DNA of 46,544 bases from Lactiplantibacillus dongliensis (GTDB lineage Bacteria > Bacillota > Bacilli > Lactobacillales > Lactobacillaceae), in NCBI RefSeq assembly GCF_005405105.1, contig NZ_BJDK01000002.1, positions 1 through 46,544 on the forward strand. Reading direction: 5' to 3'. Both the position numbers and the translations under genes were made by a program. This document shows positions 17,553 to 46,544 of this stretch, piece after piece (the first letter of the stretch is position 1; every line of letters starts with the position of its first letter). A model generated the notes under the pieces. That model was not told the DNA's origin. It did not search any database and saw nothing but the letters and a program-made list of their open reading frames with translations.

Positions 17553-18866
17553 TTATTGATTTAGTTGGTATTTGACACCACGGGTAACCCCAATTTTTAC
17601 AATTTTTTGAGTATCTATTAATATTTTTAAATATTTATTAGCTGAGCTTTCTTTAACATTTAGTAGTTCTTGTACTTGAATACGTGTAATTGTTGGATGG
17701 GTTGCTAAATAATTGGTAATCTTATTTAATTGTAGCGTGACAATTGTAGTTTTGGGCTGAAGCTCAATATTATTGACTCTGGATTGCTGTGTATAGTTCA
17801 AATTAGGCAGTGTCAGCTTAACAAAGTCTTCCATCGCCAGAATACTAGGTTTCTGACCAGTTCCACGATAGCTATTGAAGATACGACGCATGCCGGTCCC
17901 ATAGTTTTCAATGTACTTTAAACGGAACAAGCAATTGAGAACGTTGTAGTTTCTAGGGACCGATTGGCCGTTCAACATCGCGGCTGGTTGTAGGCCGCCT
18001 GGCAATGGGCCGGGGGACATAATCGTTAAACGGTCGTCGAAGAGTTCGATTTGAACCATTGCGCGGCTAAAGTACGAACGGTGTGCAATTGCACTAATCA
18101 CGGCTTCACGGATTGCAACTATCGGATAACTCTGTTGATCGGTCCGTTGACCAGCACCAGTGATAACGGAAGAGAGCTGATTATTGAGTTTTAAGAAGGC
18201 GAGAACTTCATCAATCTGCTTGGGGATGGGACCACGAACTTCTTTGCGATCTTTGAATTGATCAACAGTTAAACCTTCAAACACGGCGACTTTAACGGAA
18301 AAGTCACATTGGTCACTCATTAAAAAGGCGGTATTGGTGTAGGCGTGACTGTTGCTTAACTGAAAGCCGAGTGCATTTTGCTTAAAGTCTAATTCGGCGG
18401 CGTCAGTCATAATATCTAGATATTTAAACGTCAGGGCTTGTTGTGCTGATTCTGATTTATCATAGGTGCCTAGACTGCTTTGCCGTAACATCTTTTGAAT
18501 ACGTTCAGCGGAAGCTTTAACGGATTCAGAATTATTTCGAATATAGACTTTTCCGTCAAGGGAGTAAGGCTGGTAATCACCGCCTATTACTGAGATACAG
18601 AGCGGGCTATTGTTAGTATGGATAGTGACTAGACCCACTGGACTGGGATAATAGATTGAACTGGTTAGCCAATGACTAATGGTTTCTTCAATCTGATGGG
18701 CTTCGTGAGGTGTAAATGAATGGGTGAGTTGACGTGATTTATCGTTGACACCCAGATAAATGTAGCCGGTCATTTGACCGTTTAGAAAAGCTGCGATTTC
18801 TTTTTTGAGTTTTTCGTTAAACTGTTCTTTGTATTCTAGCTGATTATTTTCATTTGGAAACGGCAT
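17553..18866 (-). CDS. AlbA_2 / HATPase_c_4 family ATP-binding regulator
   Basis: 437 residues. Residues about 8-110 form an AlbA_2 (Schlafen-like) domain: ENNQLEYKEQF, the IAAFLNGQMTGYIYLGVND block and DGKVYIRNNSESVKAS. The middle holds an ATP-binding domain of the RecG-C-terminal type: YPIVAIREAVISAIAHRSYF and DDRLTIMSPGPLPGG. The C-terminal 70 residues are a winged helix (TRIQVQELLNVKESSANKYLKILIDTQKI). Such proteins are thought to act as transcription regulators or in phage defence. The start is odd: the best ribosome site (AAAGGAG) is 27 nt before the ATG and no standard start codon lies at proper distance, so the 5' end may be altered. The gene sits between two 116-bp direct repeats and looks imported. 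Confidence 0.82.
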   Translation of the reverse strand: MPFPNENNQLEYKEQFNEKLKKEIAAFLNGQMTGYIYLGVNDKSRQLTHSFTPHEAHQIEETISHWLTSSIYYPSPVGLVTIHTNNSPLCISVIGGDYQPYSLDGKVYIRNNSESVKASAERIQKMLRQSSLGTYDKSESAQQALTFKYLDIMTDAAELDFKQNALGFQLSNSHAYTNTAFLMSDQCDFSVKVAVFEGLTVDQFKDRKEVRGPIPKQIDEVLAFLKLNNQLSSVITGAGQRTDQQSYPIVAIREAVISAIAHRSYFSRAMVQIELFDDRLTIMSPGPLPGGLQPAAMLNGQSVPRNYNVLNCLFRLKYIENYGTGMRRIFNSYRGTGQKPSILAMEDFVKLTLPNLNYTQQSRVNNIELQPKTTIVTLQLNKITNYLATHPTITRIQVQELLNVKESSANKYLKILIDTQKIVKIGVTRGVKYQLNQ

Positions 18867-18974: not shown

Positions 18975-19090
18975 CGTAAAGAATGGGTATCAAAAAAGAC
19001 GACCGTGGTCGTCTTTTTATAATAAAATCTGTTGAGTGATGTTGATCGATTAATGAGCGCATGTTAAATCAACGACGATGTTTGGTTGTA
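18975..19090. repeat. 116-bp perfect direct repeat, copy 2
   Basis: Same sequence as 17391-17506. This copy is in the ancestral context: it covers the last codons of the adhesin (to 19069) and that gene's terminator. Confidence 0.97.
18992..19018. terminator. Terminator of the large adhesin (repeat copy 2)
   Basis: Same hairpin as in copy 1, about 50 nt past the adhesin stop on the minus strand. Confidence 0.9.
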
Positions 19091-22000
19091 AGCACTGAAA
19101 TACTAATTAAACCACTTAGCGCTAAGAGAAGATGTCCTAATATCGATAGTGACTGATTTGTTCTTGAACTAGTTTGAGGTAGCTTGGTCATTGACTGTTT
19201 AAGGTGACCGTCTTGACTCATGGCTAATAAATCTGAATGGTTGCTAATCGATACATCGTTAATCAAGTGTTGCTGTGATTTGGTCATTGAAACTTGGTTA
19301 GTAAGATTTCCTTTCGAGATTTGTTGACGGTTACTGGTTGTCTTTGGATGCTTAGTCATTATTATTGGTTGCTGGTTAGCAGTTAAATTGTTATCAGTTA
19401 TCGGCGGTGTTAAATGTTCTGGTTCTGGTGTTGGTTGTGGGTCAGTCACTGGTAATACTGGTTTTGGTGGTTGCTCTGGATCAGGTCTATCTGGTGTCTC
19501 AGCTGCTAAAACTGTGATAGTGACAGTCGTCGTTGCTTTGCCATAGCTATATGTTACCAAATAATTTCCAGCACTGGTTGTATCGACACCATCAGTTGTC
19601 ACTTTGATTTCAGAGAACTTAACTTTTTGACCGTTTTTATCAATCGCATTAATAAAGTTGTCTTGAGGTTGCCAAGAATCGCCAATTGTTAACGTACTGT
19701 TTTTGGCGCTAATCGTTGTAGGGGCCTGAACGGTAACTACTGCACTGGCAGTTGTTTCATTTTCCATAGCATCATGATAGGAATAAGTCACCAAGTAATT
19801 TCCTGGCTGATTGGTGTTGACACCAGTAGTTGTTATCTTAAGCTGGGAAAAGGCAATTGACTGATTGTTTTCATCAGTAGCACTGACGAAGTTATCTTGG
19901 GGTTGCCAAGACTCACCAACTGTTAAATAGCTATCTTTGGTTGTAATAGTGACTGGTGACTGGACCGTAACTGTTGCGGTAGCGGTTGTCTCGTTACCAA
20001 CAGCATCTAAATAACGATAAGTTACTAGATACTTTCCAGGTTTAGTTGTATCGACAGCATCAGTCGGGTAACTTAACTGATTTAGTGATAGTTTCTTACC
20101 ATTAACGTCAGTAGCCGCGACAAAGTTGGCTTGTGGGTCCCACTTGTCGGCGTATCTAAGTGTTGAATTCTTAACTGAAATCGTAGCTTTACTGGTCACG
20201 CTGACTTGAACTTGGACTGTTGGCAGACCGTTATAACTGTAGCTCACCGTATAAGTACCAGGCTTGGTTAAAGTGGTTGTCAGTTGGTCATCGTCATTAT
20301 TGCGCATTTCAAATGTGACTTGATTCGTGATATCGTTGCCTTTTTGATCCAGTGCACGCTTTAGATTGGTGGCGGCTTGCCAGTTGTCGGTCGTCTTTAC
20401 AGCGATTTGGTTGTCTTTTAATTGGATACCGCAAACAATTACTTTAAAACCATTTGAATCAATAGCGTCACCGGTTGAATTAACCATTGGAATTATATTT
20501 TCAGCACTGTCGAATAAATGATAGCTGACATAGTAGGTTCCTAATTGGTTTGTATCGACTTTTGCGGTAACGTTTTGTTCGGTTAAATCAATTCGTGTTT
20601 GACCATCAACATCAACAATCTTGGTCAAGTTATCAGTTGGCCGCCACTGATCCCCTAGATTGATAGATAGGTCGGTTCCTGAAACTTGAGCCGCTGATTG
20701 AATAACATGAATCTGAGCAGTGATATCGGTAGGAAAGTAGTTGAACATGTCATGATAAGTAATTTTGTATATTTTATTTGGAACTGTTAGATCAATATTA
20801 GCCAGTATATTGCCTTTTTCGTCAACGATAGTTGGTTTTAGTTTCTCAACACTCACTTGAGTTCCATCAGGTATAGCGGCACTTATAAGATTATCGGCCG
20901 GTTGCCAGGTTGTTTTGGGGCCAACGTACAAGGTAAGGTCTTTTGCATCAACCCATTTGTGGCGAGTGTAGGTATAAGTCTGGTCAATTGTCGAATCTGG
21001 TCCGTATTGCTTCATTAGTTCTGAAGAACTGTAACTGATATTGGTAGTGGTGTTTAGCCAGTTATCAGTGTACATGAGATTAGCATCTTTATCGGAACCA
21101 AGGTTAGCGTTAGAGCCATCTGCCAACTCTAGCTTAAAATTAGGGTTTAGAGTAATCGTTTTTAGATAAGCATTTTGAAAAAACATCGGAAAATTTGTCG
21201 TGTTGATTACTTGAACATTATGCATATCAAAGCCTGACAAGTCCAAACTTGTTGCAAAAGAAGTAGCAAACATACCAGCTGCCTGTGTCAATGAAGTACT
21301 TTTAAAGTTAGATAAATTAAGGTCTGATAGTCCTGTGTACCAAAATTGCATTGACATATCGGTTACCTTTTCAGTATTAAAGCTAGATACATTTAGATTT
21401 TCAAGGCCTGCACAACGTGCAAACATTAGACTCATGTCGGTAACGTTACTCGTATCGAAATTTGATAAATCCAGTGTTGTAAGTTTTTCATCACCAGCAA
21501 ACATACCAGACATACTAGTAACTTTATGAGTATCAAAGCTAGTCAAATTTAAACTATTAAGCCTAAAACACCAGTGAAACATAGACTGCATAGTAGTTGC
21601 ATTTGCAGTTTTAAAGTTTGAAACGTCTAGATTTTCACCTCTGTAATCAAAAAAGAGATAAGAAAAATTACTTACTTGACTAGTATCGAGATAATTTAGA
21701 TTCTGAATGCTAGTGGCGTCAGGTAAGTGCGAGAATAGCCCAGATACATCTTTTTCGGCGATGACAGTACCTTCAAGAATAACGTTTTTAATTTTATAAA
21801 ATGGTTTGTTTGGAAGCTTTAGTTCCCCAAGAAACCAGGGAATTGTTCCAAATTGCGGGACCCCATCATCATTAAGTACGCTACTGACTTCAGTAGCCGG
21901 TAATGTTCCAGCGCCTAAGTGCAGTATCTGGTCTTGATCAACCCACCATTCTGAGCCCGTATGTGGGTCACCATAAATACCACTATCCAAGTTGGTTTCG

Positions 22001-22686
22001 TCATGGTAGCCAGCGTAGTCAGTATCTGCGATTGGCAAATCAGCAATTGTTGTTGCTTTAATCTGTTCAATTGCTGGTGTATAGCTGACGGTAAAATTTT
22101 TATAGTTTGCGGTATTGGACAGTTGATTATTTACTGGCGACTTAGTAAAGTTAGTTTTTACACGAAAACTGTTAGCGCTTTCATTTTTGCCAATAGCTAT
22201 TGTTTCTACGTCATCTTTAATGTTAGCGGGTTTAATTTTAGATGTATCTGTTGTCTCTGACGCTAGTTTTTCTTTAATGGGTGGTGTCATGCTTTCAGAG
22301 TTACTGGTATTTGAGTGTTCCTTTGCTGTTTCAGTGGGAATTGGTTCTTCTGTCTTTTGTTCATCAACAATTGTTTCAGATTTTGTGGATGGGTCGGTTG
22401 TTGATGAAAATTGTAGCTGGTCTTCTTCTGTAGCTGGCGCTGATGGTTCAGATTTAGGTCCTGATTCCTGAGGTGTTCGACTTAGAGGTACAGCTGTATC
22501 TGTTTGATAACTTGTATCGGTTGTGGTGGCGCTGGTAATCGTAGTAGTCGAATCAGTATCATTAGTGTCAGCTTGAACGTTGAGGCTTGCCGACTGCCAT
22601 ATTAATAATGATAGGCTAGTGAAAAGCCAAAAGCGTCCTTTCTTGTACATTTTATAATGGATATTGGTATCGGTGGCTACTTTCAT
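19069..22686 (-). CDS. Giant adhesin: KxYKxGKxW signal, BspA-type LRRs, Ig-like repeats, LPQTS anchor
   Basis: 1205 residues from the ATG at 22686, which has GAGGGGGA eight bases upstream; a start 11 codons earlier lacks one. The signal peptide has the KxYKxGKxW form (HYKMYKKGRFWLF). Next come a Ser/Thr/Glu-rich region (to about residue 190), a globular part, and roughly five BspA/DUF285 leucine-rich units (SMF-x6-L-x2-L-x-L-S-x-FDT-x-x-V-T-D-M). Then six or so Ig-like repeats follow, the last three near-identical (SWQPQDNF, GKYLVTYRY/GNYLVTYSY), a Pro-rich linker, LPQTSS, a membrane helix and KHRR. LPQTSS lacks the Glu of the usual LPQTxE site. It should be exported and wall-bound; binding target unknown. 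Its domain set parallels the adhesin at 31711. Confidence 0.9.
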   Translation of the reverse strand: MKVATDTNIHYKMYKKGRFWLFTSLSLLIWQSASLNVQADTNDTDSTTTITSATTTDTSYQTDTAVPLSRTPQESGPKSEPSAPATEEDQLQFSSTTDPSTKSETIVDEQKTEEPIPTETAKEHSNTSNSESMTPPIKEKLASETTDTSKIKPANIKDDVETIAIGKNESANSFRVKTNFTKSPVNNQLSNTANYKNFTVSYTPAIEQIKATTIADLPIADTDYAGYHDETNLDSGIYGDPHTGSEWWVDQDQILHLGAGTLPATEVSSVLNDDGVPQFGTIPWFLGELKLPNKPFYKIKNVILEGTVIAEKDVSGLFSHLPDATSIQNLNYLDTSQVSNFSYLFFDYRGENLDVSNFKTANATTMQSMFHWCFRLNSLNLTSFDTHKVTSMSGMFAGDEKLTTLDLSNFDTSNVTDMSLMFARCAGLENLNVSSFNTEKVTDMSMQFWYTGLSDLNLSNFKSTSLTQAAGMFATSFATSLDLSGFDMHNVQVINTTNFPMFFQNAYLKTITLNPNFKLELADGSNANLGSDKDANLMYTDNWLNTTTNISYSSSELMKQYGPDSTIDQTYTYTRHKWVDAKDLTLYVGPKTTWQPADNLISAAIPDGTQVSVEKLKPTIVDEKGNILANIDLTVPNKIYKITYHDMFNYFPTDITAQIHVIQSAAQVSGTDLSINLGDQWRPTDNLTKIVDVDGQTRIDLTEQNVTAKVDTNQLGTYYVSYHLFDSAENIIPMVNSTGDAIDSNGFKVIVCGIQLKDNQIAVKTTDNWQAATNLKRALDQKGNDITNQVTFEMRNNDDDQLTTTLTKPGTYTVSYSYNGLPTVQVQVSVTSKATISVKNSTLRYADKWDPQANFVAATDVNGKKLSLNQLSYPTDAVDTTKPGKYLVTYRYLDAVGNETTATATVTVQSPVTITTKDSYLTVGESWQPQDNFVSATDENNQSIAFSQLKITTTGVNTNQPGNYLVTYSYHDAMENETTASAVVTVQAPTTISAKNSTLTIGDSWQPQDNFINAIDKNGQKVKFSEIKVTTDGVDTTSAGNYLVTYSYGKATTTVTITVLAAETPDRPDPEQPPKPVLPVTDPQPTPEPEHLTPPITDNNLTANQQPIIMTKHPKTTSNRQQISKGNLTNQVSMTKSQQHLINDVSISNHSDLLAMSQDGHLKQSMTKLPQTSSRTNQSLSILGHLLLALSGLISISVLTTKHRR

Positions 22687-22831
22687 AAGAATATCCCCCT
22701 CGCAATTATTTGTGAACAATCCTAATTAAATAGTTAATAGTAGTCCTCTTTATTTTAACATGTGGATGATTTTAAACCTATATCATAATTGAAAGTTGGT
22801 CCTAAATAGGGTTGCAGATTATTGCGAATGT

Positions 22832-31710: not shown

Positions 31711-34700
31711 ATGATTAAAATCAGCGATTCGAAAATACATTATAAGATGTACAAACGGGGACGATTTTGGGTATTTGCTGGCATTACAGGATTAGTTGTT
31801 TTACAGGGTATGACTAGTGTGGCACAGGCGGATACGGCCACACCAAGTAGCGATGTCGATGTGGTGACATCAATCCCTAGGACGACGACCAAGGAAATTA
31901 TTTTAAAAGATCAAAATGAAAGCGTTACCACAAGTGGTTCTGTCGATGGTGATTCGGGGACGCCCACCTCTTCAGTAGTTGACTCAGTAGCTAGTGGTAG
32001 TGAATAAACTAGTATGGCAACTAGTTCAGCAACTGAGGTGGAAAGTGAAACGAGTGAAGCAGTAAAGAGCCAATCTATCTCGGGTAGTAGTTATGCTGAA
32101 CCTAGTCAAGCATCGGCGGCCCCAGTTAGGGAGTCAGTTACTGTGTCTAATGCTGGCAGTCAGGTGTCTGGTGCACCATCGGAAGTCGCCAAAGCGATCA
32201 CTTCAGCGAATACAGTATTAGCACAACCAGCGGCCCCGGGTGATGAGGATGCTGACGGTGTGATGAGACCGCTAGCAAGTCTGGCCAGGGCACCTAAAAT
32301 GGCGCGTAGCTTAGTGGCTGATGAAAACGTTATAGTGGGAAACGGCGTGATTGGGGAAGTTAACTGGACAATTAATGAAACTGGGTTATTGAAATTGGGT
32401 GGGGGTCAGTTACGATTACCGGGACAGAATATTTATACCTATAGTAATCAGATTAGTCGTTTTGGCAGTTTGTCAAAGATTACAAAGATAGTGTTAACAG
32501 CACCAATTATTGTATCGGGAACTGTTGAAACACTCTTTGCTAACAAGCCAAACCTAACTGAGATTACGGGTTTAGAATATTTTGATACTCAGAGTATAAC
32601 TAATATGAGTGGGATGTTTAGAGGAGATAGCCAACTAACTAATCTAGACTTAAGTCACTTTAAAACTAGCAATGTCAGCAATATGGAGAGTATGTTTGAG
32701 AATGTGAGTTCACTGACTAGCTTGAATTTGAGTAATTTTGAAACTGGCAATGTTAGCAATATGGAGAGTATGTTTGAGAATGCGAGTTCGTTGATAAGCT
32801 TGGATTTGAGCAGCTTTATTACTGGAAACGTTAAGAATATGGCCGAAATGTTTAGTGGTGATGAACAACTGGCAAACTTAAACATCAGTCAGTTTGATAC
32901 AAGCCTTGTAGGCGACATGAAAAGTATGTTTGAAAATGCGAGTTCGCTAACTGTTCTAGACTTAAGTCACTTTAAAACAGAAAATGTGTGTAATATGAGT
33001 GACATGTTTAGCGGTGATGCTTCATTGACTAAATTAGACCTCGGTAACTTTAAGACGAGTCTTGTTGAAGATATGAGCGGCATGTTTTATGGTATGACTA
33101 ATTTAAGTGAACTTGACATCTCGAATTTTGATACTAGTAATGTAAAAAATATGGATAGCATGTTCAGTAATAGTCTTGCTCTAACCAAATTAGATTTATT
33201 TAATTTCGATACTAGTAAGGTGAGTAATATGCGCTACATGTTCAATGAGATGAGCGCACTGACAGAGTTAAACGTCTCGAGTTTTAATACCAAGCTTGTC
33301 ACCAATATGGACCACATGTTTTGTTGGAATCAGTCGATTACTAAATTGGATGTTTCAAGATTTGATACTGCTAACGTTAAAAATATGATTAACATGTTTG
33401 CATGGATGTCTAAAGTGACTACATTAGATGTCACGAGTTTTGATACCAGTAACGTTGAAAACATGTCTGGCATGTTTTCTGGAATGAACTCCTTAAACAA
33501 ACTTGATGTTTCGAATTTTGATACAACAAAAGTTAAATCTATGTCTAGCATGTTTAGTACGGATAGTAGCTTAACGGAACTAGATGTTTCAAACTTTAAA
33601 ACTAGTGCAGTTAGTACGATGTGGGCGATGTTTCAAGGACTTAGTAGTATCAAGGTACTTGATGTTTCGAACTTTGACACTGGAAATGTTGAAACAATGA
33701 GCCGAATGTTTCAGGGGGTTAGTCAAGTTCAGACGCTAGATGTTTCAGGTTTTACTACGGACAAAGTTAAAAGCATGGAGAAAATGTTTGAAGATGTATC
33801 TAGTGTTACGGAACTGAATCTGTCAGGCTGGAATACAACGCAAGTAGGATTGCCTTTGGAAAATCATGCAGTGGCTAGTATGGAATCAATGTTTCAAAAT
33901 ATGACATCTTTAGAAAAACTCGATGTATCGAACTTTGATACAAGCAATGTGACAGATATGAGTTATATGTTCTCAGGGCTGTCTAAATTGTCTGAATTGG
34001 ATGTCAGTAGCTTTGAGACGTCCGCAGTGACTAATATGGATTTCATGTTTAATGAGATGTCAGCATTAAGGTCATTAGATATTTCAAAATTTTCAGATAT
34101 AGGAATTGAGAAAAATCGATCTCATAACTGGTTAGATAAGCTCTCTCACTTGCGAGTACTTAAACTAGAACCACGTTTGAGTCATAGTAGTATATTTAAT
34201 AGCGTGTTGGTTGATCCTAGCGATCCGGGACATTGGCAACGTGTCGGTACCGGAACGATTGACCAACCAGCCGGAGCAAGCTATAGTTCTGTAGCTTTAA
34301 GGGCACAGTACGCGCCTGAGATGGCCGATATGTACGTTTGGGTACGACGCCAATTAGGCCGAGTTGTAACCACTAAGACCGTCACTCGCCAAGTCGATTA
34401 TTTAGATCAGGGGACGGACACGTTGTTAGATCGTGTTACTCACCAAGTCACTTATGCTAAGTTTGCCTTAATCGATACGTTTACCAACAAAATAGTTGGC
34501 TATGACTTGAATTATGATATGGTTGCCGATATCAGCGATCCGCAAAAGGCATGGGTCCTAACCAGTCAAAGTGCCAGCCTACCAACAATTGACAGCCCAG
34601 ATTTCAGTAATCTCGGTTACCAAGAACCATCGCAAGCACAAGTCGCAGCCCAAACTATCGACAGTGATTATGCAACGACTGACCTTAACTTACCGCTTAT

Positions 34701-35847
34701 CCGGATCTACTATCAACATGTTACTGACCCTAATACCGACTATCGAAGCGTTAATCGGATCATGACGTATGTTGATGCTGAAACGCAGGGAACAGTAGCA
34801 CCAGCTGTGGTACAACGTGTCACCTACTATCGGACCGCCGTGATTGACCGCATTACCGGTGACTTATTGGGCTACGATACGACTGGTGATGGGCAAGCTG
34901 ATACCACTGATGCCGCAGCTGACTGGGTCCTGAGTAGTCAGACGAATCAATTGGCCAGTGTCACTAGTCCAATTCTAAGTCAGCATGGATACACGGCCCC
35001 GTCGCAGGCTGAAGTTGCGTCGGTGACAGTATTAGCGGCGGATGCTGATGCGCCGGATTTGGCGATTGTCATCAGTTATGGGCATCGATTAAAAGCAACG
35101 ACCATTGATCGCTCAGTTACGCGGACGATTCAATATATCGATGGTACAACTCAAGCTAAGGTTGCGCCAACCGTTAATCAGCGCGTGACTTATCGGCAAG
35201 TCCAATTGACCGATCTAGTGACGAAGAAGGTTGGTTACGATACTAATGGTGATGGGCAGATTGATACCCTTGATCCCAAGCGAGCTTGGCTGGTTGTGGG
35301 CTCCTCCGAGTTGGCAGCAGTCGTGAGCCCTGAATTAAGTAGTCGCAACTATGCGGCGGCCTCATTGGCTCAAGTGGAGACACTGGTTATTCCAGTGAAT
35401 TATACTGGCTTAACAGCAATAACAGTGACGGTCACCTACCAGCCAGTCAGTCCAGAAGTACCGGAAGAACCAGCAGTACCGGAAGTACCGGAAGCATCCG
35501 AAAAGCCAGTGCAACCAGCAGTTCCTGAACAACCGTCAGACCCTGTCAAACCGGAGCAATCGGTTCCGGTGGATGTTGATACTGGTGAATTTACGAGTAA
35601 GGAACCAACTAAAGAGCCGGTACTGACAAATGGTGATTCTGACGAAGCCCAAGGGCATTTAAGTCGTGGGCAACAGCTGGCACGATTACAAGCCAATCAA
35701 TCGGCTTCGATCTTCGCTCAACAGACGATTGCCAATACTGAACTTCCCAGAACGGATAACAAGGCTAGTTCACACTTGGCATTAGCTGGTTGGGGATTGC
35801 TTAGTTGGTTGGGATTGGCTGGTTTCTGGTCACGTCGTCGTCATTAA
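31711..35847 (+). pseudogene. Giant BspA-LRR / mucin-binding-like adhesin interrupted by a stop
   Basis: The frame from the ATG at 31711 (AAAGGAGGAG upstream) to 35847 is single except for one TAA at 32005-32007. The first part (98 residues) is a KxYKxGKxW signal peptide (HYKMYKRGRFWVF, cleavage near QADT) and a Ser/Thr-rich start. The second part has 19 BspA/DUF285 leucine-rich units with a 26-residue period (32600-34080), three Mub-B2-like repeats (TVTRQVDYLD, RIMTYVDAET, SVTRTIQYID starts), two of them with Asp/Gly-rich calcium-type loops (DTTGDGQAD, DTNGDGQID). It ends in a Pro/Glu linker, LPRTDN, a hydrophobic helix and SRRRH. The downstream frame has an ATG at 32014 but no ribosome site or signal peptide. 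The rest shows no decay, so the stop is recent, read through, or reversible. Confidence 0.88.
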
Positions 35848-38073: not shown

Positions 38074-39042
38074 ATGACCAGTGCAATTGAGTTTCGGCAC
38101 GTTAAGAAGGATTTTAATGGTCACAATGTGATTCCTGACTTGAACTTAACCGTGTCTCAAGGGGAGTTGTTCGTGCTGGTCGGGACTTCTGGCAGTGGTA
38201 AGACGACTTCACTGAAGATGATTAATCGTTTAGAGCCATTAACGGCCGGTGAAATCTTAGTCAATGGTACTGATGCGACCACGGTGCCCATTCGTGAGTT
38301 ACGGTGGGATATGGGCTACGTCTTGCAACAGATTGCGTTGTTCCCAACCATGACTGTCGCGCAAAATATTGCTGTGATTCCCGAAATGAAAGGGACGCCT
38401 AAAAAGGAAATCAGTGCCACGATTGATGAATTACTGACTGAAGTCGGTCTAGATCCCGCCGAATATCGCGACCGGATGCCCGATGAACTATCTGGTGGTG
38501 AACAGCAACGGATTGGTATCTTACGGGCGATTGCCTCCCAACCGGCAACAGTCTTAATGGATGAACCGTTCAGTGCGCTAGACCCGATCTCACGGCAACA
38601 GTTACAAGATTTGGTGCTAAAGTTGCATCAACGTTTCGGGAATACGATTGTGTTTGTGACCCATGACATGAATGAAGCGTTAAAATTAGGTGACCGAATC
38701 GGCGTGATGCGCCACGGTGAATTACTACAAGTCGACACGCCCAGTGCGATTGCGCAGCATCCCGTCAACGACTTTGTCCGCGAGTTTTTCGGCGCCAGTC
38801 GTGCGAAGAAAGTCTATGATATTTACGTTGGTCGGGTGGGCTTGGAACAAGGTTACTTAAAAGCCAAACCGACTGTCGCCGCCGGTCAGATTCAAGCCAT
38901 TGACGTGCAAGCCACATTACGGACCGCGTTTGAAGCGTTAACGACGCATGATTATTTGGCTGTGACGGAAGACCAGCAGGTGCGAGGGTATTTGGATCGG
39001 CAGACGGTGATGGGGTATTTGAGTACGCATGAACCAGATTAG
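38074..39042 (+). CDS. choQ: Glycine betaine/choline/carnitine ABC transporter, ATP-binding protein
   Basis: 322 residues. Walker A GTSGSGKTTS, Q-loop MGYVLQQIALFP, signature LSGGEQQRIGI, Walker B TVLMDEPFSALD, and switch His in FVTHDMNEAL. The last 70 residues are a shortened, CBS-like tail in place of the usual paired CBS domains of OpuCA/ProV, so ionic-strength gating may differ. The ribosome site GGAGG is inside the end of choS. No classic terminator follows; three tandem hairpin repeats do. Confidence 0.94.
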   Translation: MTSAIEFRHVKKDFNGHNVIPDLNLTVSQGELFVLVGTSGSGKTTSLKMINRLEPLTAGEILVNGTDATTVPIRELRWDMGYVLQQIALFPTMTVAQNIAVIPEMKGTPKKEISATIDELLTEVGLDPAEYRDRMPDELSGGEQQRIGILRAIASQPATVLMDEPFSALDPISRQQLQDLVLKLHQRFGNTIVFVTHDMNEALKLGDRIGVMRHGELLQVDTPSAIAQHPVNDFVREFFGASRAKKVYDIYVGRVGLEQGYLKAKPTVAAGQIQAIDVQATLRTAFEALTTHDYLAVTEDQQVRGYLDRQTVMGYLSTHEPD

Positions 39043-39066
39043 AGTGTGAAGGCCAACGGGTTGCGC

Positions 39067-39412
39067 CTGAGCATTGCCTAGCTAAGTCAATGATGCGGTG
39101 GTCTTCCGCATGGTTGACTTAGCGTAGCAAGCGGAGGGCACAGTTGGACTGAGCACGTTTCAAAAAAGAGTGTGAGTGAGGGCGGTTTGAGGTTGAGCAT
39201 TGCCTAGCTAAGCCAATGATGCGGTGGTCTTCCGCATGGTTGACTTAGCGTAGCAAGCGGAGGGCACAGTTGGACTGAGCACGTTTCAAAAAAAGAGTGT
39301 AAGGTGAGCTGGGTGGGACTGAGCATTGCCTAGCTAGTCAATGATGCGGCGAATTTCCGCATGCTTGACTGGCGTAGCAAGCGGAGGTCCCAGGCTTGCC
39401 GAACACGTTTCA
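39067..39412. repeat. Three tandem 126-bp structured repeats
   Basis: Units begin CTGAGCA/TTGAGCA at 39067, 39193 and 39319, an exact 126-bp period. Each has about 100 conserved bases folding as TTGC-CTA-GCTAAGTCAA-TG-ATGCGG / CCGCAT-GG-TTGACTTAGC-GTA-GCAA, with a 7-nt loop, then GCGGAGG and ACGTTTCA. Units 1 and 2 are almost identical. Unit 3 differs in the loop and flanks but preserves the pairing, adding TGGGAC / GTCCCA at its base. A short A-run ends units 1 and 2 on the plus strand, i.e. a T-run before them on the minus strand. No gene is visible in 39043-39457. Confidence 0.92.
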
Positions 39413-39457
39413 GCAAATTTACCAAAAACAAAAATCTCAAGCAAAGGAGTTCAAAAA

Positions 39458-40789
39458 ATGACAAAACAAGTCGACGTTATCGTTATCGGCGGTGGCCCAG
39501 CAGGTACCGCCATGGCAAGTGGCCTAAAAGCTCAAGGTAAATCAGTATTGATTGTCGAAAATGACTTATGGGGCGGGACTTGTCCTAACCGTGGTTGTGA
39601 CCCAAAGAAAATTTTACTCAGTGCCGTTGAAGCCCGCCGCCATGCCCAGAATTTAGCTGGTCATGGGTTGAGGGGGGTCCCAACGATTGATTGGCCAGCT
39701 TTGATGGCAACTAAGCGCGGGTATACGGATCAGATTCCGAGTGGCACGTTGAACGGTTTAAAGGCCCAAAAGATTGATACTATGCATGGCCAAGCGTATT
39801 TTCGGGCTGATGGCGAATTGACCGTAGATGGTGAGGTCGTCGCTGCGACTGATTATGTGATTGCGACCGGCCAACGACCAAGTATCTTGCCTATCACTGG
39901 TCACGAGTATTTTGCCACTAGTACGGACTTTCTTGATTTAGACACGATGCCCAGCCGCGTCACGTTTGTTGGTGGTGGCTATGTTGGATTCGAATTGGCA
40001 ACGATTGCGCGTTCGGCGGGTGCTGAAGTTCATTTGATTCATCACAATCAACGGCCATTGAAGGCATTTGACCCAGCCCTTGTTAAGGCGTTGATGCAAA
40101 ACTTAACGCAACAAGGAGTAACGTTTGATTTAGACGTGGACTTAAACAAAATTACGCAACAAGCAGATGGCCTGCACCTAACGGATGATCACGGCTTTGA
40201 TCTCACAACTGACTTAGTGGTTTGTTCTGCTGGGCGGGTGCCAAATGTAGATCACTTAGGCCTAGCGAATGTTGGGGTTAGTTACGGTCGACACGGGGTA
40301 CAAGTTAACGACCATTTACAGACTGCTAATCCGCATATTTATGCGATTGGAGATGTGAGTGATACGCCGGTACCCAAGTTAACGCCGCTGGCAGGTTATG
40401 AGGCGCGCTACTTAGTCGGTGAGTTAACCCAAGCTGGTGCGCCAATCAGCTATCCAGTTGTTCCGACTGAAGTGTACGCTGAACCTAAGCTAGCCCAAGT
40501 TGGCATGACTGCAACTCAAGCGGCGAAGTCGGATAAATACCAGGTTCATGAATTGGATATGACCCATTGGTTCACGTACTATCGGCTGCAAACGCCGCAA
40601 GCTTTAGCGAAGGTAATTGTGGACCAACAGTCCGGACTCGTGGTCGGCGCTAGCTTTCTGAGTGAGATTGCCGATGAACTGATTAATTATGTGGCCTTGT
40701 TGATTGATAAGCAAGTCACGTTAGCTGGATTGCAGAAGTTAGTCTTGGCCTATCCAACGCCGGCTAGTGATCTGCAGTATTTGTATTAG
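39458..40789 (+). CDS. gshR: Glutathione-reductase-like pyridine nucleotide-disulfide oxidoreductase
   Basis: 443 residues from the ATG at 39458, behind AAAGGAG; a start at 39341 would lie in the repeats. FAD motif VIVIGGGPAGTAMA, redox disulfide GGTCPNRGCDPKK (Cys42, Cys47), ATG block, NAD(P)H motif FVGGGYVGFELA, second FAD motif YAIGDVSD and a dimer domain. The catalytic C-terminal HPTxxE of glutathione reductases is YPTPASD: Tyr432 replaces His and Asp replaces Glu. Mercuric reductases also carry Tyr at this place, so classical disulfide reduction may be impaired and the substrate may differ. The last codons are duplicated at 41523-41558, beyond a toxin-antitoxin module. Confidence 0.9.
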   Translation: MTKQVDVIVIGGGPAGTAMASGLKAQGKSVLIVENDLWGGTCPNRGCDPKKILLSAVEARRHAQNLAGHGLRGVPTIDWPALMATKRGYTDQIPSGTLNGLKAQKIDTMHGQAYFRADGELTVDGEVVAATDYVIATGQRPSILPITGHEYFATSTDFLDLDTMPSRVTFVGGGYVGFELATIARSAGAEVHLIHHNQRPLKAFDPALVKALMQNLTQQGVTFDLDVDLNKITQQADGLHLTDDHGFDLTTDLVVCSAGRVPNVDHLGLANVGVSYGRHGVQVNDHLQTANPHIYAIGDVSDTPVPKLTPLAGYEARYLVGELTQAGAPISYPVVPTEVYAEPKLAQVGMTATQAAKSDKYQVHELDMTHWFTYYRLQTPQALAKVIVDQQSGLVVGASFLSEIADELINYVALLIDKQVTLAGLQKLVLAYPTPASDLQYLY

Positions 40790-40851
40790 TGAATGTAAAT
40801 AACTCGTGTTTCAAGGTAATTGTTGTGCACAATTAATATCGTGCAAATCCA

Positions 40852-40879
40852 TTTACTTCTTTCAAGAGTGTTGTATAAT
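40852..40879 (+). promoter_or_regulatory. Promoter of the toxI-like RNA
   Basis: -35 TTTACT (40852-40857), 16-nt spacer, -10 TATAAT (40874-40879). A start near 40886 would place the repeats at the 5' end of the RNA. Confidence 0.7.
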
Positions 40880-40885
40880 TTGAAT

Positions 40886-41006
40886 AGAATAGAAGTTCAG
40901 TATTTGGTGATTCTCTACCGTAAGTGAGACTTTTAAAATTGGTGATTCTCTACCGTAAGTGAGAACCTTAGTATGAAAGGGGACTGCATGGCGGCCCTTT
41001 TTTTTT
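40886..41006 (+). ncRNA. Type III antitoxin RNA (toxI/antiQ-like), two 35-nt repeats plus terminator
   Basis: Two repeats of exact 35-nt period start at 40904 and 40939; 26 bases of each are identical, including GGTGATTCTCTACCGTAAGT. The bases just before (AGAAGTTCAGTAT) resemble the tail of a third, partial unit (GAGAACCTTAGTAT). A terminator and the toxin gene follow immediately. Order, period and terminator match ToxIN/AbiQ antitoxin RNAs, whose repeats are about 35-36 nt; each unit would be cut out by the toxin and fold to inhibit it. Confidence 0.78.
40975..41006 (+). terminator. Intergenic terminator between antitoxin RNA and toxin
   Basis: AAAGGG / CCCTTT arms with a 13-nt inner segment and a run of eight T. 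In type III systems such a leaky terminator sets the excess of RNA over toxin message. Confidence 0.75.
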
Positions 41007-41025
41007 CTAAATTTTTTGGGGACAG

Positions 41026-41511
41026 ATGAATCTTTATTATGTAAATAGTGATTATATTTCGTATTTGAGAATGTTTGATCGTCGAGTTTTATGGAATAAG
41101 AGTCATCGACCATATGTTGGAATTATTTTTAAGTTTAATGAATTTACGTACTTTGCACCATTGGAAACTGCCAAGTCTGGTAAACGTGTGAATAAACGAA
41201 TTGCTGTTCAAGTTTGGGGTAGTTCTCAATCAGATACAGCGCCACTAAGCTTTTTATTGCTTAATGATATGATTCCTATCAACGAGGCTAATTATACTTT
41301 GGTAGATATGGAGGTTGAAAAGGAACGCAATGTATTAAAATATCAATTGATGCTTAATGAAATTAACTATATTCGACCTCGTGAGGCACAAATTACAAGG
41401 CAGGCTTCAAAGGTCTATCAGTTGAAAAATGAGAAGAACATCGATTTCTTCAACAGAATGTGCTTGGATTTTAAACTGCTTGAAGAAAAATCATTATTAT
41501 TTGATCGATAA
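41026..41511 (+). CDS. toxN: ToxN/AbiQ-family endoribonuclease toxin
   Basis: 161 residues, close to ToxN and AbiQ (about 170). The family's N-terminal pattern is visible: YYVNSDYISYLRMFDRRVLWN, RPYVGIIFKFNEFTYFAPLETAKSGKR, then LLLNDMIPINEANYTLVDM. The helical end (INYIRPREAQITRQASKVYQL and FFNRMCLDFKLLEEK) also fits. The protein should be an RNase that cuts its own repeat RNA and host transcripts, causing growth arrest or aborted phage infection when the RNA runs out. GGGGACAG lies just before the ATG. Base composition is AT-richer than the neighbours. I am confident of the family because the repeat RNA is in the right place; subfamily is uncertain. Confidence 0.85.
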   Translation: MNLYYVNSDYISYLRMFDRRVLWNKSHRPYVGIIFKFNEFTYFAPLETAKSGKRVNKRIAVQVWGSSQSDTAPLSFLLLNDMIPINEANYTLVDMEVEKERNVLKYQLMLNEINYIRPREAQITRQASKVYQLKNEKNIDFFNRMCLDFKLLEEKSLLFDR

Positions 41512-41522
41512 GTAAGTTTTAG

Positions 41523-41558
41523 CCGACACCAGCTAGTGATTTACAATATTTGTATTAA
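41523..41558 (+). pseudogene. Duplicated 3' end of gshR
   Basis: It encodes PTPASDLQYLY and a stop, the same as codons 433-443 of gshR (40754-40789). Seven of 36 bases differ, all synonymous. It is detached from any start. Confidence 0.9.
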
Positions 41559-41579
41559 ATGAAAAAATTATCTCGATAT

Positions 41580-41621
41580 AAAAATGGAGACGCTGATTCA
41601 AATACAGGGTCTCCATTTTTT
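41580..41621. terminator. Bidirectional terminator
   Basis: AAAAATGGAGAC / GTCTCCATTTTT, perfect 12-bp stem, between convergent genes. It probably was the original gshR terminator. Confidence 0.88.
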
Positions 41622-41626
41622 GTAGA

Positions 41627-42241
41627 CTAGTTTAATAATTTTGGATCAATTTGCCGATCCTTAAAGTAATATTGCCGGTCATGGTCACTGACTTGGCGCA
41701 TCACTCGACAAGGATTGCCAGCCGCAACGACGTTATCTGGTAAATCTTTAGTGACGATACTACCAGCGCCGACTACGACGTTATCACCAATGGTCACACC
41801 AGGTAAAACGATGACGCCAGTGCCTAGCCAGCAGTTGCGACCGATATGCACTGGCATATTATACTGATAATTCTGTGCGCGTAATTCCGGTAGAATCGGG
41901 TGCCCGGCGGTTGCCAAGGTTACATTCGGGCCAATCATCGTCTGATCACCGACATAGATATGGGTATCATCGACTAGTGTCAGATTGAAGTTAGCGTAAA
42001 TATTAGACCCAAAATGGACGTGATGACCGCCAAAGTTGGCGTGAAATGGTGGTTCAATGTAACAATTTGGACCGATTTCAGCGAACAGTTCTGTTAGAAT
42101 GGCTTGTTGTTTCTCGGGTTCGGTGACGCGGGTTTGGTTGTAATCGTATAAGCGGTTCAGCAATTGTTTTTGCTGGATTTCGATTGCGGGGTCATCCGGT
42201 CGATAGAGATCCCCAGTGTGCATTTTTTCAAGATTCGACAT
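41627..42241 (-). CDS. Maltose/galactoside O-acetyltransferase family (LacA/Maa/NodL)
   Basis: 204 residues. A left-handed beta-helix of hexapeptide repeats is clear from about residue 55 (IEPPFHANFGGHHVHFGSNIYANFN, IGPNVTLATAGHP, IGRNCWLGTGVIVLPGVTIGDNVVVGAGSIVTKDLP), with the catalytic His in the TAGHP motif and the CRV tail typical of sugar acetyltransferases. It should transfer acetyl from acetyl-CoA to a sugar hydroxyl. Its start overlaps the end of the MFS gene by 14 nt and its AAAGGA site lies inside it, so the two are co-translated. Confidence 0.92.
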   Translation of the reverse strand: MSNLEKMHTGDLYRPDDPAIEIQQKQLLNRLYDYNQTRVTEPEKQQAILTELFAEIGPNCYIEPPFHANFGGHHVHFGSNIYANFNLTLVDDTHIYVGDQTMIGPNVTLATAGHPILPELRAQNYQYNMPVHIGRNCWLGTGVIVLPGVTIGDNVVVGAGSIVTKDLPDNVVAAGNPCRVMRQVSDHDRQYYFKDRQIDPKLLN

Positions 42242-45373: not shown

Positions 45374-45560
45374 GTCAACCACGCCCGTTTAAAAACGGAC
45401 GCTTGTGAGAGCCACACCCCCTGGCATGGCGACCACAATTTGCTTAGATACAGCGTTAGCCTACGAATAGGACTTATCCGCTAATTACCAAAGCCTTTTA
45501 GGTCCGCAGGTTGCCAGACGGACTTGTTTCTTACAAGGTTGCTAAACCTTTAGCTAAAAT
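45374..45560 (-). ncRNA. Putative TnpB omega-RNA and IS right end
   Basis: Downstream of the tnpB stop on the minus strand is a compact GC-richer segment with several short hairpins. It ends in GCGTCCGTTT-TTA-AACGGGCG-like stem (45402-45381) and GTGGTTGAC (to 45374). IS200/IS605 elements encode their guide RNA across the tnpB 3' end up to the right end, and TTGAC is a right-cleavage type sequence in some of them. The guide would be the bases just past 45374 (CTGTTCTTCCAACCAG on the minus strand). Boundaries are estimates. Confidence 0.5.
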
Positions 45561-46544
45561 GTTCTTAGCTGCATTATGATCACGCACATGAAGCATGCCA
45601 CAACTAGGACACATCCACTTGCGGTCAGCTAACGTTAACTTATTCTTACCGGTCATGATGTGTCCACACTGGCTACAAGTTTGTGTCGTATTTCGGGGAT
45701 CGATTGTCAAAAATTTCCGGCCGTATAGATCAGCTTTGTAAGCCAACATGCTCAGTAAAGTTCGCCAACCAACGTCCGAGATACTCATTGCCAAGGCGTG
45801 ATTCCGCAACATATTTTTACTTCGCAATTCTTCAGCTACGACTAAATCGTGATTTTTGATTAAGGCCGTAGAGACGTGGTGCAGGAAGTTTTTACGTTGG
45901 TTGGCAACTTTAAGCTGTAGCTTGGCTACTTGTAGCCGTTGCTTTTGATAATTTTTTGATTCTGATAAGCGTCGTTGGGCCTTTTTAGCTCGTCTGGCTC
46001 GCCGTGACAATTTCCGTTGAGCTTTAGCTAGCTTTCCTTTAATCATTCGATAGTAACGGGGATTCTCAATGACTTGTTCATTGGAATCTGTCAGAAAATT
46101 ATCAAGATTCAAATCGATGCCGACTTTAGATTCAATTGCGGGTTGCTTGGCAACAAAGGAGCGTTCTGACCCAATTTGTATGGACACAAAGTAATGACCT
46201 ACAGCGTCCATTGAGACCGTTGTCGTCCCGATTCTAATATCATCAGCTCGTTCTAAAATCTTCAGCGGCAGTCCCTAGAAACGGAGACAACCTAACTTGG
46301 GCAGCCATAGATGGCGGGTATCAGTTAGTCTAACGCTACCATTCTTCATCGTTGGAACTGTCACTTTAGCACTGTAAAGACAAGAGGTTTGATAAGTTTG
46401 CTTATAACCACGCTTATGAAACTTAGGCGTCCCCGCCTGATGAACCTGGCGGAATAGTTTCCAGGCGGTCTTGTAATTCTTGATGGCATTGGCTTTCATC
46501 AAGCTATCAAAGTCTGGATGATTGAGCCAACCATGGCTATTGGA
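45531..46544 (-). pseudogene. tnpB: TnpB (IS200/IS605 family) with an internal amber stop, 5'-partial
   Basis: One frame runs from the right window edge to 45531, broken only by TAG at 46277-46275, within LPKLGCLRF-stop-GLPLKILERA. The 5' end is outside. The RuvC-like triad is intact: Asp in VGIDLNLDNF, Glu in VVAEELRSKNML and Asp in VRDHNAAKNIL. The zinc ribbon is also intact (CSQCGHIM...CPSCGML). TnpB is an RNA-guided DNA nuclease that helps keep the element in its site. No tnpA lies in the window; many such elements lack it. An ATG at 46211-46209 could start a shortened protein, but that would miss the N-terminal RNA-binding part, so activity is doubtful without readthrough. Confidence 0.9.

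Follow-up and report, generated by a model that had tools for sequence, protein, structure and literature searches.

The stretch of DNA analyzed here (the window; 46,544 nucleotides from Lactiplantibacillus dongliensis) very probably carries a complete toxin-antitoxin locus of type III that belongs to the AbiQ/ToxN branch of the ToxIN family; it has a two-unit ToxI array and, judged by synteny, lies on the chromosome. In its sequence and RNA architecture, the locus appears to be an ordinary member of this family and a probable phage-defense module. The type III, ToxIN/AbiQ-like identity proposed in an initial annotation of this DNA has strong support from the protein-family matches of the toxin, the order of the genes, and covariation in the pseudoknot. 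Our main interest, however, lies in two findings around the locus: the scar left by its insertion and a set of ToxI-like arrays that stand without a toxin (solo arrays) in other Lactobacillaceae, the latter mattering more than the window locus itself.

The protein encoded downstream of the array had been described as 161 aa long with ToxN/AbiQ patterns, and profile searches agree. It matches the Pfam family ToxN_toxin (PF13958) with an E-value of 2.2e-31 and 109.6 bits (cut-off 25) over profile positions 1-155 of 159, and the PADLOC AbiQ model with 1.7e-38. Comparison with PDB chains by phmmer likewise places it among ToxN/AbiQ-type endoribonucleases by sequence family, with matches to 4ATO (ToxN; 2.7e-17), 4GLK (AbiQ; 1.9e-15), 7D8O (3.7e-7), and 2XD0 (ToxN; 7.8e-7); a fifth match, 4raa, was set aside as marginal (E 0.027). 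We take 4ATO and 2XD0 to be the ToxIN systems of Bacillus thuringiensis and Pectobacterium atrosepticum, respectively. AbiQ is plasmid-borne, unlike the window locus. No match to CptN was found among the Pfam, PADLOC, and PDB-chain searches of the toxin.

When 17 uninterrupted toxins are aligned and read via the conserved Gly and Ala-Pro-Leu landmarks, Arg28, Glu47, Thr48, and Lys50 of the window toxin align with Lys33, Thr52, Ser53, and Lys55 of Escherichia coli ToxN, residues whose catalytic roles are described in excerpts of PMC8860590. According to the same excerpts, Arg at position 33 is known from two E. coli clusters, and exchange of Thr52 for Val abolished the toxicity of E. coli ToxN. 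Because of this latter result, Glu47 speaks against claiming activity without qualification. The place of Thr52 is also taken by Glu in the toxins of G013, G020, and G017:C33, by Val in G345, and by Leu in AbiQ.

Tandem repeats of about 34-38 nt upstream of the toxin are characteristic of ToxIN loci, and the window locus has two such units, which share an identical 26-nt core and start 35 nt apart (Table 1). Within 40790-41025, no exact repeat is longer than this core, and none of 1000 dinucleotide shuffles went beyond 13 nt; nowhere else in the window do exact copies of 20 nt or more recur at a spacing of 20-60 nt. We also built a covariance model of the unit, to which the window array itself contributed. 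It matches the array twice (2e-9 and 1.6e-8); a third match in the window lies outside the array and is at chance level (E 0.47). The two 35-nt repeats of the initial annotation are thus borne out, whereas the partial third repeat that it listed is not supported, since the model finds two units at the array.

The promoter named in the same annotation, TTTACT-16-TATAAT, is present ahead of the array, but it is weak evidence alone: a scan of 40750-41700 returned 2 sites versus a shuffle mean of 4.2, a count that is not above chance. Shuffling the 75 nt upstream gave an equally good site in 19 of 500 cases, and the site is also kept in G017:C1. When 14 arrays were compared, a TTTACT -35 element lay within the best-scoring site at nine of them, and fewer than 20 of 500 shuffles were as good at only four (window, G017:C1, G020, and G268). 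For the terminator, the picture is divided. RNA folding yields a stem-loop (40975-41002) that runs into a T run ending at 41006, which resembles the rho-independent terminator located before the toxin in ToxIN loci, but a strict scan finds no terminator at the locus. Similar hairpins between array and toxin were recognized by eye in relatives.

Table 1. Coordinates of the window locus, its flanking gene-end copies, and the solo arrays of other genomes (window positions unless a locus is named).
Feature	Position	Strand	Evidence or remarks
Reductase gene 3' end, copy 1, coding	40753..40789	+	repeat comparison
Sigma-70-type promoter-like site, TTTACT-16-TATAAT	40852..40879	+	promoter scan
ToxI-like unit 1	40902..40936	+	core 40904-40929
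A-rich inter-unit junction UUAAAAUU	40932..40940	+	predicted ToxN cleavage site, from sequence and published motifs
ToxI-like unit 2	40937..40971	+	core 40939-40964; pseudoknot stems GGU/ACC, UCUC/GAGA
Intrinsic-terminator-like hairpin and T run, in the gap between array and toxin	40975..41006	+	RNA fold; absent from strict scan
ToxN/AbiQ-family endoribonuclease toxin, 161 aa	41026..41511	+	ORF, Pfam, PADLOC, phmmer
Imperfect second copy of reductase 3' end	41503..41575	+	core 41526-41557, 27/32 identical to 40757-40788
Solo ToxI-like array, G007	L030 2471-2533	-	covariance model, pairing
Solo ToxI-like array, G007	L093 1193-1297	+	covariance model, pairing
Toxin-less arrays, another Lactobacillaceae genus	L100, L101, L102, L103, L104 around 1501		genomes G174, G197, G363, G372, G268

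The unit fits the H-type pseudoknot of ToxI, which can be drawn with the interleaved stems 1 (GGU/ACC) and 2 (UCUC/GAGA), and relatives show compensatory changes. In a first test set (A2; 11 distinct units from 6 genomes), the pseudoknot pairs were formed in 94.8% of cells, compared with 82.1% in shuffles, which in both of our tests ignore relatedness, and 57.1% in the best slid control, which corrects for relatedness in part. In ten cells both partners had changed, versus a mean of 2.4 in shuffles, and further pair types were not above shuffles in this set (268 of 500). In the structure drawn first, the third pair of stem 1 did not form in 3 of the 11 units, and it was then left out. A second, partly post hoc test, performed without this pair and with three solo-array units added, gave 98.8% pairing (best slid control 64.3%) and 15 cells changed on both sides. 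Folded as a single strand, the transcript did not stand out from its shuffles (z -0.79), 41 of 200 of which equaled or surpassed it, pseudoknots being outside the scope of the program.

The repeat sequence had also been considered possibly new. As a strong claim, this was rejected: the core is identical in another Lactiplantibacillus genome (G013), and the alignment of the window unit with the Rfam ToxI family (RF02519) is recognizable, with AAAUUGGUG and UACCGUA-GU in common, though at 19.1 bits (E 0.4) it remains below the gathering score of 50. Published ToxN cleavage motifs include AA^AU, GAA^AU, and AAA^AA (PMC8860590, excerpt), and only the inter-unit junction UUUUAAAAUU clearly resembles them; the sequence flanking unit 1 on its 5' side, CAGUAUUUGG, does not, and the one flanking unit 2 on its 3' side, CCUUAGUAUGAAAG, is a doubtful case. 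With a single clearly A-rich junction, it seems uncertain whether each unit is trimmed at both ends. In the three-unit array of G013, an A-run is found ahead of each unit.

Gene order and published ToxIN systems suggest how such a locus would operate. A single promoter would give rise to a short RNA, with most transcripts terminating at the hairpin that follows the array and those continuing past it supplying the toxin mRNA. ToxN would cut the A-rich inter-unit junction, and each unit, folded as an H-type pseudoknot, may cap ToxN in a closed RNA-protein ring like those of the solved relatives, with units drawn from several transcripts. Once antitoxin synthesis stops, for example upon phage infection, free ToxN could cut cellular or phage RNA.

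Several characterized systems resemble the window locus. AbiQ/antiQ of Lactococcus lactis also has 35-nt repeats and a toxin that is homologous over nearly its full length, but its array comprises 2.8 repeats, with a functional 1.8-repeat mutant, versus two units in the window (PMC5086642, excerpt). The ToxIN systems of B. thuringiensis and P. atrosepticum share ToxN homology, a pseudoknotted repeat, and an array-toxin terminator with it (excerpts of PMC5086642 and PMC5772629); they differ in repeat sequence and carry 2.9 repeats of 34 nt and 5.5 repeats of 36 nt, respectively (PMC5086642). CptIN of Eubacterium rectale likewise has two genetic antitoxin repeats and an H-type pseudoknot, but features a 45-nt unit, a heterotetrameric complex, and a toxin of another family (PMC4627078, excerpt). 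The window adds a ToxIN locus with two units to a lactic acid bacterial genus and would be useful for learning how a two-unit precursor with one obvious cleavage junction feeds a ring-shaped complex.

Lactiplantibacillus songbeiensis is both the nearest named match and the sole relative in the genome-contig search, and it has the same locus (L028); G017 is 93% identical to the window over 2.7 kb. The array is the best conserved of the parts compared between the window and L. songbeiensis/G017 (61/61), the others being the promoter stretch (48/52), the spacer ahead of the promoter (54/62), the terminator stretch (57/61), the second gene-end copy (43/46), and the toxin gene (477/486). The order array-hairpin-ToxN is also seen in relatives. 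The ToxIN locus of G013 (L029), which has the repeat core in common with the window, encodes a toxin of 56% identity, but it has three units and occupies another place in the genome. Among plasmid records, 133 of 72,556 match by tblastn, and a distant-mode DNA search of plasmids returned no relative. Viral contigs yielded no relative either, and phage records gave two distant ToxN matches (29-30% identity).

The locus lies between a gene for an FAD-dependent disulfide reductase (39341-40789) and, on the minus strand, one for a hexapeptide acetyltransferase (41627-42241). It is flanked by an imperfect direct repeat (window 40728-40806 and 41503-41575), in which the 3' end of the reductase gene recurs as a second copy that overlaps the last codons of the toxin and marks the far edge of the insertion. 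This gene-end repeat reaches a local alignment score of 65, compared with a maximum of 41 in 1000 shuffles. In G006, G010, and G020, the site is empty: reductase and acetyltransferase are close neighbors with no toxin-antitoxin locus between them, and, judged by eye, these sites hold only a terminator-like inverted repeat. The gene-end copy and the empty sites together indicate that the module was inserted at the reductase gene end, duplicating at least 32 nt, so that it would have entered behind the 3' end of that gene. Candidate mechanisms include single-crossover entry of a circle carrying the gene end, or loss of the middle of a larger element. The second gene-end copy was found in the window and G017 only, and the window species and L. 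songbeiensis have the insertion in common. The idea of a hotspot, with other inserts behind the reductase bearing the same duplicated end, was rejected, as eight downstream stretches of other relatives (L047-L054) contain only the gene's own end. On the other side, 39041-39387, located between the reductase gene and genes for a glycine-betaine-type ABC transporter, comprises 2.8 tandem copies of a 126-nt unit.

Two full repeats, which the initial annotation placed at the low end, are indeed at the low end, but they are not unusual. From 48 fetched PF13958 stretches, we dropped 11, each either the second part of a split gene or a fragment that was weak or broken (L006, L039, L041, L043, L044, L046, L070, L071, L072, L073, and L077) and tabulated 37, counting units by eye. 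These include 24 loci with an uninterrupted toxin and a readable array, four uninterrupted toxins with no array in the 420 nt upstream (G128, G424, G449, and G447), and nine interrupted, split, or partial toxins (G146 twice, G369, G321, G555, G722, G1016, G1099, and G1076). Two units are present at six of the 24 readable loci, three at 15, four at two, and five at one. The two-unit loci are those of the window, G017:C1, G458, G554, G1170, and G1356b, the last being diverged; since one insertion is common to the window and G017:C1, these two are not independent. Published experiments, as excerpted, point the same way: antiQ naturally has 2.8 repeats, of which 1.8 are sufficient and 0.8 are not, and Pectobacterium ToxI needs 2.5 of its 5.5 repeats (PMC5086642), while E. 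rectale CptI has two genetic repeats, one of which alone is fully antitoxic (PMC4627078). Altered numbers of antiQ repeats lower phage resistance (PMC5086642 and PMC5772629, excerpts). Given the six two-unit loci and the antiQ and CptI experiments, an array of two units is ordinary and not new, and the suggestion that the locus may show how few units suffice has already been approached experimentally with the 1.8-repeat antiQ and the single CptI repeat.

Three other explanations of the locus were weighed. Chance repeats next to an unrelated small gene deserve practically no credence: their sole support is the weakness of the promoter and terminator scans, and they are refuted by the toxin family match, the covariation, the 26-nt repeat exceeding all shuffles, and the covariance-model matches. 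It is also improbable that the locus is decaying, with an array shrunk to two units and one obvious cleavable junction, an altered active site, and an inactive toxin. All four single-unit arrays (L035, L042, L075, and L076, two of them in one genome) precede interrupted toxin frames, which indicates that contraction can accompany decay; Glu at the place of Thr52 and the frequency of toxin-less arrays in this repeat family would fit as well. However, the frame is open in two species at 96.9% protein identity, with a dN/dS of 0.30 (on just 9 differences) and an unchanged array. Moreover, two units are kept at four further loci with an uninterrupted toxin (one diverged), and Glu or Val also occupies the Thr52 place in near relatives with three or four units.

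Somewhat more credible, though still rather unlikely, is a module that arrived with a mobile element and only stabilized that element, with no role in phage defense. The duplicated gene end around the locus, the empty sites in three relatives, and the plasmid-borne relatives found by tblastn would fit such a case, but the insertion of about 770 nt contains no ORF of at least 80 aa besides the toxin, so that the module has only itself to stabilize. In addition, ToxIN, AbiQ, and TenpIN members abort phages (PMC5772629, excerpt), which also counts against this reading.

The solo arrays were surveyed with a covariance model of the unit (R2), searched against 350 Lactobacillaceae genomes at E up to 0.001, stricter filters losing some weak matches. 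R2 matches 12 of the 350 genomes, six of which (G000, G007, G017, G020, G321, and G345) match by construction, because their units were used to build the model. PF13958 is matched in six of the 12, namely G000, G013, G017, G020, G321 (interrupted), and G345. It is matched in none of the other six (G007, G174, G197, G268, G363, and G372) even at E up to 1, in the same search that is positive in G000 and others; as these are draft genomes, a toxin might reside on an unassembled plasmid. Across the 350 genomes, arrays without a toxin (seven in six genomes) are about as frequent as complete loci (six in five genomes).

One of the two arrays in G007 consists of two units, after which comes a C-terminal remnant of ToxN that carries a frameshift (tblastn with the G013 toxin, 2.8e-9). 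The other is made up of three diverged units whose stems show compensatory changes, and no toxin is encoded up to or in the next gene. The remaining arrays belong to another genus of the family. G174 and G197 have near-identical loci with two units and an N-terminal toxin remnant of at most 14 residues, a weak match (E 0.08). Three units are present in G372 and two each in G363 and G268, for which the model itself gave one each. All six pseudoknot pairs are formed in 14 of the 16 solo units, the exceptions being one G363 unit with 1/4 stem-2 pairs and one G007 unit with 3/4; in the first unit of G268, the pseudoknot requires a loop one base longer. The promoter-like sites found in G174, G197, and G363 do not stand out from shuffles.

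The plain reading of the solo arrays is decay in the only safe order, with the toxin lost first. More speculatively, and in our view with little probability, arrays of two or three pseudoknots may have been kept after toxin loss as an RNA immunity against incoming ToxN, be it from plasmid addiction or from another cell's defense locus. If this were true, a solo array of a sister species, which has nearly the window's repeat core, would be expected to neutralize the window toxin. Together, the solo and single-unit arrays allow tests of the order in which such loci decay, or of a solo-RNA immunity against ToxN. Among the papers that our literature search found, no title or abstract opening describes type III arrays standing alone. 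Orphan toxins of type III and orphan antitoxins belonging to other types have been reported, as have, in general terms, anti-addiction modules on chromosomes (excerpts of PMC12654330 and PMC12548467), and phage mimicry of ToxI is known (PMC5086642, excerpt).

Elsewhere, the window encodes two large DUF285 repeat proteins that are likely surface proteins. One (19069-22719, minus strand) has a KxYKxGKxW signal match and Ig-like domains, and the other (32014-35847, plus strand) has Muc_B2 domains, with a separate KxYKxGKxW ORF just upstream (31711-32007). A protein with Schlafen AlbA_2 and HATPase_c_4 domains is encoded at 17553-18866 on the minus strand. Near the end of the window (45531-46502, minus strand), an OrfB/TnpB-type transposase ORF with OrfB_IS605 and Cas12f1-like TNB domains (45531-46211) is followed by a further ORF (46275-46502), and the transposase gene looks interrupted.
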